55,099 bases of DNA. Source: Micrococcales bacterium (lineage in GTDB: Bacteria; Actinomycetota; Actinomycetes; Actinomycetales; WQXJ01). The translations under genes were made by a program, and so were the position numbers. Location: the NCBI GenBank assembly GCA_009784895.1, contig WQXJ01000009.1, positions 1 through 55,099 on the forward strand, read 5' to 3'. This document shows positions 25,937 through 55,099 of this stretch, piece after piece. Position 1 is the first letter of the stretch; every line of letters starts with the position of its first letter. The notes beneath the pieces were generated by a model. It saw only the letters and a program-made list of their open reading frames with translations, searched no databases and was not told where the DNA came from.

Positions 25937-26000
25937 GCCTGGTGATGCACCGCCTGGCGACGATCCTCGTTTTGGCGCGCATTGTTCACCAACCCCCTAG
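25937..26000 (-). repeat. Half copy of the 169-bp inverted-end element
   Basis: Read on the minus strand from 26000 down to 25937 this 64-bp stretch matches 53368-53431 with six differences, all transitions. It has the left end (CTAGGGGGTTGGTGAA) but not the middle or the right end. It lies between two glycosyltransferase genes; the upstream gene ends inside it. Confidence 0.85.
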
Positions 26001-51988: not shown

Positions 51989-53371
51989 ATGACGCGACCC
52001 GAGCCGAGCCGTCACCCGAGCGCCATCGCCATGGTCCTAACCGGCGCTGATGGCATTATCTCGGCTGTCAGCCCGAGCCTTGAGGCTATGACCGGTCGCA
52101 GCCGGACCGAGGCGATTGGCTCACCCTTGGCCCTGTTGCTGCATTCGGGGCAACCAAGCGGTCTAAACACAAATCTGATGCCAGCCCTACAAGCCGGCGA
52201 AATGACGGTGGCTTATCAGCATTTGGCGGATAACTTGGGTGGTTCGGTTTGGCTGCTGACGGTGAGTGTCGGCATTTCTGAAGGCACTTTGCTGGTCGGT
52301 TTCCCACCCAGCCACGAAAAGGCCCAACGCACGGCTGAACGGCTCTACCGCCTGACCACCGACGTTGAGCGCTCGGCCTTAGAGGCAGGTCAGTCGCGCG
52401 AGGCCGCCACCGCGCTGGGCGCGGAGAAACTCGACGCCCAACTGGCCGATATGGGCAATGGCAGCTACGCCGAATGGATCCAAAGTGTCCTGCAGGCCGA
52501 GGTCGATGACCGTCCAACCCTGGCAGGCTCGCCCCAGGGAGGGCCAATGGACTACGTCTGGGACCGGGCCTTGGATTTGCACACCATCGTGGCCAAACAA
52601 CAGGCCGGCCAGACCAAGCTGTTTGAGGCCTCGCAGGTTATGGCCTCGGCCGCCCAGAGTGCTGAAAACCAGGCCGAGCCGATGGACCAGACTGGCGCCC
52701 AGGTGGTGGCAGCCGCCTCGCAACACCAAGGCGGTAGCGCCACCTTGCTAACAGCCGGCCACCGGGTTAGTGCTGGCGCCCAGGATTCGGCCCTGCGTGT
52801 GCGCGCCCTGCAGCAGGTGGTCGAGCGCACCCAGACCCTAATGGCGGCCCAGCGCTTCATGTTGGCCGGCACGTTGGTCCTGACGGAGGCTGTTTTCGCT
52901 GCGCTGCGGCCAGCTTGTCTGGCCAGTGGGGCTTCGGGGCGGGTTTTGCCCGATGCCGCCTACCCACCTGCCGTCAAAACTCGCCCGGGTGACAGGGAGC
53001 TTGAGTTTGTGGCGCCGCTGGTGGCGGCACTGCGTGAACTGGCACCGCGGTTATCAATGGGCACGGCCCGGATCCAAGCCGGGTTGAACCGGATCACCAA
53101 AGAAGCGATCGAGGCCGCCGGGCAACTGCGGACCTTTGACTCCTCACTGGCCTCATGGCGACTGCTGTCCCAGCGTTTTGGTCTACCGACTTGGCTAGTG
53201 CCCGACGACCTCGACCCGCAGGGCGCGGCTGCCCGGCTCGACGGCCTGGTTGACCTAGCCCGCGCCGCCTTGGGTCGCGGCGGCTTCACCGACCCAACGC
53301 CCATTTCTGAAGCCGCCGCCCAAGTCAGCCGGGCCCTGCGCCAAGTTGCTGGCCCTTTCCGCCGCGGCTAG
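51989..53371 (+). CDS. PAS-domain protein with long helical part (Aer/MCP-like, unknown)
   Basis: 460 residues, no membrane segment. N-terminal PAS domain (about 12-110): MVLTGADGIISAVSPSLEAMTGRSRTEAIGSPLALLLHSGQPSG, ALQAGEMTVAYQHLADNLGGSVWLLTVSV, the pattern of Aer-type PAS domains of chemoreceptors. Then a long, mostly helical region (about 112-450) rich in Ala/Gln/Glu with heptad-like stretches, but without the conserved MCP signalling tip. ATG at 51989 with AAGGGG 7 nt upstream, 11 nt after the previous stop. Its TAG stop lies in the left end of the 169-bp element. Probably the cytosolic partner of the two membrane proteins; no CheA/CheW gene is in the window. Confidence 0.75.
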   Translation: MTRPEPSRHPSAIAMVLTGADGIISAVSPSLEAMTGRSRTEAIGSPLALLLHSGQPSGLNTNLMPALQAGEMTVAYQHLADNLGGSVWLLTVSVGISEGTLLVGFPPSHEKAQRTAERLYRLTTDVERSALEAGQSREAATALGAEKLDAQLADMGNGSYAEWIQSVLQAEVDDRPTLAGSPQGGPMDYVWDRALDLHTIVAKQQAGQTKLFEASQVMASAAQSAENQAEPMDQTGAQVVAAASQHQGGSATLLTAGHRVSAGAQDSALRVRALQQVVERTQTLMAAQRFMLAGTLVLTEAVFAALRPACLASGASGRVLPDAAYPPAVKTRPGDRELEFVAPLVAALRELAPRLSMGTARIQAGLNRITKEAIEAAGQLRTFDSSLASWRLLSQRFGLPTWLVPDDLDPQGAAARLDGLVDLARAALGRGGFTDPTPISEAAAQVSRALRQVAGPFRRG

Positions 53372-53536
53372 GGGGTTGGTGAATAATGCGCGCCGAAACG
53401 AGGATCGTCACCAGGTGATGCATCGCCAGGCGGAGGTCTGCCCCGCTAGCAGAGCTAACGGGGTACGGCCGACAACGAAGCGAGGCGCCGCCTGGGGGCG
53501 ACCGCAGCCGGCGGGAATTGTTCACCAGCCCCCTAA
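53368..53536. repeat. 169-bp element with inverted ends between convergent genes
   Basis: Left end TAGGGGGTTGGTGAATAAT (53369-53387); the right end read on the minus strand is TAGGGGGCTGGTGAACAAT (53535-53517), two transitions apart, which still pair as G-U on the plus-strand RNA. The middle holds further small inverted repeats (TCACC/GGTGA at about 53408-53418). No transposase frame. The first 64 bp recur at 25937-26000. Ends give the TAG stops of both flanking genes. MITE- or REP-like, or a bidirectional terminator; undecided. Confidence 0.8.
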
Positions 53537-54606
53537 TCACGTTCGACTAGACCGTGGGCGATGACCAGGTCGCCGCGGTAGAAGACGGCCGATTGCCCGG
53601 CCGCCAGGGCGCCGATGGGCTGGTCCAGCGCAACGTTTCCACGGTCTTGTTCCTGCCAGGTCAGGTGACAGGGATAGACCCGGCCATGGGCTCTAACCTG
53701 GACTTCGGTTTCGAAGACCGGCCCTGGCTGGGGCACCAGCCAGCTCAACTGAGACAAGCCAAATGACTCCACTGCTAGGTCCTCGGCCAAGCCAACCCGG
53801 ACCAGGCCACCAGGCACGTCGACCGCGGTGACGTAGCGCGGCCGGCCTGTCGGGTCCGGATCGCCCAGCGCCAAGCCTCGGCGCTGTCCCACTGTGAAAC
53901 CGTAGGCACCATCGTGATGGCCTACCACTGTGCCAGTTTGGTCTAGAACAACCCCCGCCTGCGCGCCAAGGCGCTGGCGCAAGAAACCTTGGACATCGCC
54001 ATCGGCAATGAAGCAGATGTCGACTGAATCGGGTTTGGCCGCCGCCGGCAGGCCAAGGCTCCGGGCCTGGGCCCTAACCTCAGCCTTTGAGGTCATGTCG
54101 CCTAAGGGAAAGAGGCAACGGCTTAACACCTTGGCTTCCACCGCCGCCAGCACATAGGACTGATCCTTGGCCCGGTCTTTGGACCGGCGCAGCTGGACTT
54201 GATCATCCTTTAGGCAAAGCCGGGCATAGTGGCCAGTACAAATGGCATCAAACCCGAGGGCCGTAGCTTTGGTTTGCAGCAACCTGAGCTTAATCAGCCG
54301 GTTGCAGCGGACACACGGATTTGGAGTCCGCCCGGCAGCGTATTCGGCCACGAAGCCCTCGACCACTTGCTCTTCAAATTGCTTTGAGGCGTCCCAAACC
54401 TGAAAGTCGATACCAAGTATGTCCGCCACGGCCCGAGCCTCGTTGGCCTCATCCACCTGGCCACTGTTTTCGCCGTTGGCCCGGCTTTTGGACGCAGTCC
54501 GGTTCAGGGCCAAGTAGGCTCCGGTCACCTGGTGGCCAGCATGAACCATAGCGGCGGCCGCCACCGCCGAATCGACGCCGCCCGAAAGGGCGGCCAGCAC
54601 CCTCAT
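53533..54606 (-). CDS. mnmA: tRNA-specific 2-thiouridylase
   Basis: Thiolates U34 of tRNA-Lys, -Glu and -Gln. 357 residues. PP-loop ALSGGVDSAVAAA at the N-terminus, TPNPCVRCNRLIKL with the catalytic Cys, ICTGHYAR, KDQSYVLAAV, KPDSVDICFI with the second catalytic Cys, and GAYGFTVGQRRGL in the C-terminal part. ATG at 54604-54606 with GGAAGTGA upstream. Usually in the ligA neighbourhood of actinobacteria; here the receptor operon and the inverted-end element separate them. Its stop codon is supplied by the element. Confidence 0.96.
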   Translation of the reverse strand: MRVLAALSGGVDSAVAAAAMVHAGHQVTGAYLALNRTASKSRANGENSGQVDEANEARAVADILGIDFQVWDASKQFEEQVVEGFVAEYAAGRTPNPCVRCNRLIKLRLLQTKATALGFDAICTGHYARLCLKDDQVQLRRSKDRAKDQSYVLAAVEAKVLSRCLFPLGDMTSKAEVRAQARSLGLPAAAKPDSVDICFIADGDVQGFLRQRLGAQAGVVLDQTGTVVGHHDGAYGFTVGQRRGLALGDPDPTGRPRYVTAVDVPGGLVRVGLAEDLAVESFGLSQLSWLVPQPGPVFETEVQVRAHGRVYPCHLTWQEQDRGNVALDQPIGALAAGQSAVFYRGDLVIAHGLVERD

Positions 54607-54675: not shown

Positions 54676-55099
54676 TTACCAGCCGGTTCCTATTTGGGCG
54701 GTTGGCTGCCATTTGCCGCCACCCTTGGCCTGGTAGTACATCAACTTGCCGTCATTAGTCCGGCCAATCAGGTCAGCCATGCCATCGCCGTTCAAATCAG
54801 CGGCTGAAATAGTGGTGAAAACACCCCAACCATGACCCACTTGGACAGGCGACAGCCACTTGCCGTCGCCCCTACCACCGTACAAATACAAGTTGCCGTC
54901 TTTACGCAAACCGTAGATACCGTTCTTACCAGTCTTATTGGCATCCCCGGCTCCAAACACTTCCCAACTGGTCCAACTAGTCCCAACCTGCGGGTAAGGC
55001 GACATGAACCCGCCCTTACCGTTACCGCGGTACATGATCAACTCACCGGTAGGCCTGATGGCCAGCAAATCAGCTTTCTTATCCCCAGACACGTCACCA
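54676..55099 (-). CDS. FG-GAP/VCBS repeat protein, C-terminal end (partial)
   Basis: The 5' end lies beyond the window. About 141 residues are seen, ending GTGW and TAA. They consist of repeats of ~45-50 residues with the pattern DLLAIRPTGELIMYRGNGKGGF ... QVGTSW, then GIYGLRKDGNLYLYGGRGDGKW, then DLNGDGMADLIGRTNDGKLMYYQAKGGGKW, i.e. the Ca-binding-type DxNGDGxxD and W-rich blades of FG-GAP/VCBS beta-propellers. Such C-terminal propellers are common on secreted actinobacterial enzymes (lysozymes, peptidases); the catalytic part, if any, is outside. 69 bp separate it from mnmA. Confidence 0.85.
   Translation of the reverse strand, partial: GDVSGDKKADLLAIRPTGELIMYRGNGKGGFMSPYPQVGTSWTSWEVFGAGDANKTGKNGIYGLRKDGNLYLYGGRGDGKWLSPVQVGHGWGVFTTISAADLNGDGMADLIGRTNDGKLMYYQAKGGGKWQPTAQIGTGW

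Follow-up and report, generated by a model that had tools for sequence, protein, structure and literature searches.

Two convergent genes in a Micrococcales draft genome are separated by exactly one short sequence with inverted ends and no transposase gene, which raises the question of what this sequence is and how it can abut both genes. It lies in contig C9 of the host assembly (2.36 Mb, 111 contigs), and the window is this whole contig of 55,099 bp. An earlier note, made from the letters alone, described a 169-bp element and offered a MITE, a REP-like unit or a structured terminator. We consider it highly probable that the sequence is mobile in a MITE-like, non-autonomous way, as a hairpin of 163 bp that codes for nothing and inserts at C-TA-R. 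It is a new MITE-like family that is known in kind (ERIC/RUP/Correia type); unusually, it is its ends that turn over from genus to genus, and not its interior.

The element and its neighbours

Features of the window:
51989..53371, + strand: PAS-domain protein gene, 460 aa; its TAG stop (53369-53371) sits in the element end
53369..53370, strand not applicable: left TA, presumed TA target duplication
53369..53387, + strand: left terminal inverted repeat, L-type, TAGGGGGTTGGTGAATAAT
53371..53533, + strand: element body, 163 bp, folding as a single long, imperfect hairpin; homologous on this strand to the sense strand in relatives
53417..53438, + strand: conserved core, 5' side, GATGCATCGCCAGGCGGAGGTC (alignments A3/A4)
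53440..53463, + strand: apical stem-loop of the hairpin
53472..53489, + strand: conserved core, 3' side, ACAACGAAGCGAGGCGCC
53517..53535, - strand: right terminal inverted repeat, R-type, TAGGGGGCTGGTGAACAAT read on the - strand
53534..53535, strand not applicable: right TA, presumed target duplication
53533..54606, - strand: mnmA (tRNA 2-thiouridylase family), 357 aa; its TAG stop (53533-53535) sits in the element end
25937..26000, - strand: second copy, truncated to the left arm only, 91% identical, TA flank retained

The 19-nt ends had been described as two transitions apart, and direct comparison of positions 53369-53387 with the reverse complement of 53517-53535 bears this out (17/19 identical, both mismatches C/T). 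A repeat search with a 9-base exact seed reported no inverted ends. The element itself is real, but its extent is better drawn as TA + 163 bp + TA (53369-53535) than as 169 bp, the outer C and A being flank or target bases. Element ends in the host genome read TA + GGGGGYTGGTGAAYAAT. With 163 bp, no transposase gene and this 17/19 terminal match, the element falls within the usual dimensions of MITEs (less than about 500 bp, terminal inverted repeats of about 4-30 bp). The ORFs of 71-72 aa that span it are mechanical and extend into the flanks, leaving it no coding capacity.

The + strand RNA folds into a single long hairpin at -104.9 kcal/mol (z -8.8), a level reached by none of 200 shuffles, in line with the whole-element hairpin suggested earlier. 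The - strand RNA folds more weakly (-84.4 kcal/mol, z -4.3), because the two end mismatches become G-U pairs on the + strand and A-C on the - strand.

The placement exactly between two convergent genes also holds, down to the last codon: the stops of the PAS-domain gene and mnmA both overlap the element ends, and each TAG consists of the flanking TA plus the first G of the element. Further right, a repeat-domain gene (54676-55098) looks nearly identical by eye to the end of contig C49 of the same genome (L066), and the contig may therefore break off here at a duplicated gene.

Copies in the host genome and the insertion target

The host genome (G000) carries two more full copies at 99% and 96% identity (BLASTN), and a fourth (L004) has 86 extra bases. 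The BLASTN search returned 45 matches at E up to 10, among which most of the weak ones are chance and many are partial copies. Near-identical copies are dispersed in the flanks of different genes. The end pattern, allowing up to three mismatches, occurs at 30 places in the genome, against none for a reversed control. Copies that retain both ends fall into size classes of 249, 163, 87, 80 and 64-65 bp, and the 87-, 80- and 64-65-bp classes are internally deleted. Single-end fragments are also present, four of them about 27 bp long. These four units (L012, L029, L065 and L066) read (CTA)GGGGGCTGGTGAACAATTCCCTAG, in which an R-type end is closed off by the CCCTAG palindrome that it contains itself, and are possibly a minimal derivative of the element. 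The 86-bp insert of L004 (1607-1692) is bounded by ACAACGA repeats and has no second copy among the loci examined. A weak model match at L083 (G000:C24:33349) is a tandem repeat of a GAGACCGAGGTT...GGGTTGAGCTGCCCTT unit.

TA adjoins the element in 28 ends from G000, G004, G003 and G006, a count that excludes ends without a TA flank (24/37 in G000, 4/6 in G004 and 18/31 in G003/G006), many of which are degenerate or chance matches. The base outside the TA is C in 23 of the 28, compared with 745 of 1927 background TAs in the host-genome loci (P 3e-6), and this preference gives the target as C-TA-R. All four full copies in the host genome have TA on both sides, which could also belong to the palindromic end, and the pair is not always intact (TG and TT at L031). 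Judged from these flanks, TA is probably duplicated at insertion.

In all end types seen, the element begins, just inside the TA, with a purine: G in the host genome, A or G in relatives. At 7 of 28 ends, the TAR stop of the element is exactly where an ORF of at least 130 codons finishes, compared with 2/28 and 0/28 in the shifted frames; at a threshold of 100 codons the counts are 8, 3 and 1, and at 80 codons 11, 4 and 4. Clear cases of genes that stop exactly at the element are the PAS-domain gene here and three genes of normal type: mnmA, a flavodoxin gene (L002) and, in G005, one for a 112-aa P-II protein (L089). We infer from this that insertion takes place in the TA of stop codons and that the purine at the element's first position restores the stop.

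In the mechanism that we propose, the 163-bp hairpin would insert at C-TA-R, mostly CTAG, after which TA would stand on both sides. Its movement in trans would presumably depend on a DDE transposase reading the terminal repeats, an enzyme that the genomes examined lack, have lost or do not show in their assemblies. Where the TA belongs to a TAG or TAA codon, insertion would rebuild the stop on either side, and the element could thus abut gene ends without changing the protein, as with the two convergent genes here.

Relatives, shared core and conserved pairing

BLASTN found matches in 5 of 39 genomes, including the host, and in none of 21 outside the family. The exact end pattern recovers four stretches from a genome-contig collection: three from the Micrococcales MAG WQYN01, which, to judge from its sample naming, may come from a termite gut, and one from JAPONU01 that holds a single element end only. 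Further reach comes from a covariance model (R1) based on five full copies, which matches 8 of 18 family genomes in 5 of 6 genera. G003, G004, G005, G006 and G012 contain homologues of full size (166-169 bp). A second model (R2, from alignment A4) scores the window copy at 161 bits, a test that is not fully independent in that A4 includes a partial copy from the host genome. The phage collection gave no element matches, and the plasmid collection one marginal match of 49 bases inside a gene. An 11,364-base IMG/VR contig, listed as viral (L148/L071), holds one full copy; its size and match position equal those of a G004 contig.

The earlier note would have counted its reading as refuted by a lack of other copies in the genome and of conserved ends in relatives. 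The check did not refute it: copies exist, and the window element's ends are kept in one other genus, that of G004, though in no further one. The terminal repeats of G003, G005, G006 and G012 are quite different. The ends in G003 and G006 are AGAGGTGATTCACATCTC (11 and 21 sites, control 0) and those in G005 are GTGTCCC.... G012 has AGGGGCCG... and AGAGCCTGTT..., and in it the same core is found with at least two end types. Common to the homologues are the length of about 165 bp, the pairing and the core (5' GATG..CGCAAGGCGGAGG, 3' ACAACGCAGCGAGGCGCC, with variation). Between genera, the interior is better conserved than the ends, a point against the MITE-like reading.

Three paired loci inspected among those examined by tblastn carry their copies at different sites. 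The exception is found beside dnaA, where the spacer holds a right-end fragment in G000 (L012, G000:C16:35717) as well as in G004 (L038). The neighbours of L012 were confirmed as dnaA and dnaN, and the homologous protein is 63% identical between the two genomes. The right end contains TTGTTCACC, which we take to resemble a DnaA box. Chance, or an old fragment common to the two genomes, could account for this.

The pairing is conserved along with the core. Alignment A4 comprises 11 copies fitted by the model to the structure; its sources were selected to keep antisense rows out, which left only partial copies to represent G004 and G000. Within it, both partners have changed in 52 of 63 pairs (mean after shuffling 30.8, none of 500 reaching it), and 89% of cells pair, falling to 35-45% when partners are slid by 1-3 columns. 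In a MAFFT alignment of 18 copies that was not fitted to structure, 33 of 41 predicted pairs show double changes. Selection clearly keeps the palindrome, be it as DNA ends or as RNA.

These double changes are also what would be expected if the sequence were a structured RNA that spread, such as a 3' UTR stabiliser, a processing site or a bidirectional terminator, with selection on the fold and mobility secondary or past. We regard this as somewhat unlikely. The sense strand folds more stably than the antisense strand in 21 of 24 copies, all six two-ended host-genome copies of at least 80 bp lie between convergent genes, and, of 13 hand-picked one-sided copies in relatives, 10 have the sense orientation towards the facing gene (P 0.09). 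A palindrome maintained as DNA would covary too, however, and A4 was fitted to structure. The preference for convergent genes was not found in relatives, where all gene arrangements occur. In host and relatives alike, these arrangements were called by a home-made codon-usage scorer rather than a standard gene finder, with some doubtful short flanking genes. Rfam 15 has no family above gathering score in the window, with two sub-threshold rows at chance level, and no T-tailed intrinsic terminator was found at 53200-53700, which speaks against an intrinsic form of the structured terminator first suggested.

The G-U pairs, which had been noted at both end mismatches, do occur in the window copy but are not general. 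A neutral arm-to-arm alignment of the sense strands counts 135 G-U against 104 A-C in the 24 copies, which were picked by model R1 or the end pattern and whose orientation is hence not fully model-independent. The excess is present in G000, G004 and G012 and absent in G003 and most G006 copies. As the basis of a strand-specific RNA reading it is weak and was set aside. An RNA role is possible, as is a 3'-end role given the place between convergent genes, and any host effect would most likely be that of a folded 3' end or an mRNA-stability element.

A further account, which we hold quite tentatively and think unlikely, takes the folded core as the conserved unit. The element would be a mobile hairpin of fixed length whose ends are replaced or drift yet stay complementary. 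Recognition of its fold and core, in single-stranded DNA or in RNA, would lie with an unspecified host or element enzyme, and the purine-first TA ends would settle harmlessly on stop codons.

Mobilisers, known elements and meaning

The MITE-like reading that we prefer draws on the copies, terminal repeats, TA flanks, lack of coding capacity and relatives; what it lacks is a transposase with the same ends. IS630-type DDE_3 (PF13358) is found in none of six genomes, PF01609 in two (G005 and G012) and PF13359 in one (G005), the latter two likewise with no match in the host genome. None of ten DDE loci inspected has the element ends, and two of them (L139 and L140) have clear inverted ends that differ. 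At L140 (G005:C92), a PF01609 transposase is bounded by CTAGTACTACAGCCTG inverted repeats with CTAG at the ends, and these repeats are unlike those of the element. Mobilisers of the IS630, IS4/IS5 (PF01609, PF13359) and Y1 types were considered and none could be matched to the element ends; the inspection covered the ten DDE loci. The searches were made on draft assemblies, in which absence is weak evidence. Multicopy insertion sequences often break assemblies, and a lost or unassembled transposase is therefore our preferred account. We infer that a transposase moves the element.

Movement of the hairpin by a Y1 (RAYT) transposase that reads single-stranded hairpins, as for REP/REPIN elements, would fit the two inverted ends, the hairpin and the short single-end fragments, which do look REP-like. 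The Y1 domain (PF01797), however, occurs in one of six genomes, G012 (locus L147), and not in G000, G003, G004, G005 or G006. The full element is far longer than a REP, and TA-flanked ends around a conserved 163-bp interior are not the REP pattern, which makes this origin, and the REP-like unit of the earlier note, very improbable. A chance inverted repeat or a simple terminator between convergent genes has two points in its favour: a terminator would suit the position, and the 17/19 end match is, taken alone, only moderately unusual, a match of 17 also turning up in 1 of 60 dinucleotide shuffles of the 301-bp region. The recurrence of the element refutes this account and leaves it virtually no probability: other full-length copies in the genome are 96-99% identical, the end pattern has 30 matches and its control 0, and homologues occur across the family.

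As a non-autonomous mobile hairpin, the element can be set beside several described families. ERIC, the enterobacterial 127-bp MITE, is likewise a short, non-coding, multi-copy, intergenic palindrome with TA ends and no known transposase. It belongs to another lineage and differs in length, its consensus is presumably dissimilar in sequence, and in the present element it is the ends rather than the interior that turn over. For ERIC, IRU and RU-1 of enterobacteria, TA ends and a TA duplication are reported in the accessible passages of PMC2759123, and an effect of the folded ERIC RNA on mRNA stability in those of PMC2229807.

RUP of Streptococcus pneumoniae (107 bp) is, like the present element, non-coding, bounded by terminal inverted repeats and targeted to TA (PMC2229807, in excerpt). 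It has a candidate mobiliser with matching ends, IS630-Spn1, whereas no IS630-type DDE_3 was found in the six genomes here. The Correia/NEMIS elements of Neisseria, with a longer and a shorter class of 155 and 107 bp in the same excerpt (PMC2229807), resemble the element as short multi-copy sequences in long and short classes; unrelated host and length set them apart, by description rather than alignment. YPAL/RU-2 of Yersinia (about 168 bp) is nearly equal in length and is also a long, intergenic hairpin that is not A+T-rich, but the excerpted account describes it as without terminal TA and with target duplications of 3-26 bp (PMC2229807), whereas the present element is TA-flanked.

QMITE2 of Coxiella is a palindromic, multi-copy element with truncated classes (PMC5896051), part of whose stem occurs in other genera (PMC10969869), both as given in the portions available. 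It shares the palindrome, the presence in many copies and the truncated classes with our element. Host group and sequence differ, and the stem of QMITE2 is shared with alphaproteobacteria while its tip diverges; in our family it is the core that is shared, with the ends replaced. For prokaryotic MITEs in general, a review sets out, in its accessible part, the defining features and preferred 3' or intergenic sites (PMC10969869). The usual MITE pattern, ends better conserved than the interior, is reversed in the present family. A limited literature search found no actinobacterial MITE with a CTAG target and no stop-codon regeneration by MITEs.

The usual definition of a bacterial MITE starts from its ends, the part that a transposase has to recognise. 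When length, fold and core persist over five genera while the ends are replaced, as in this family, the part that is recognised is separated from the part that is paired, and the end variants are natural compensatory mutants for testing recognition. If the folded-core account were true, the element would be recognised by its fold and core. The stop codons also suggest a simple way in which G+C-rich genomes could tolerate elements that target TA: this dinucleotide is scarce, at 1.9% of all dinucleotides in the host-genome loci, stop codons are one kind of site where it occurs, and an element that begins with a purine may rebuild the stop.
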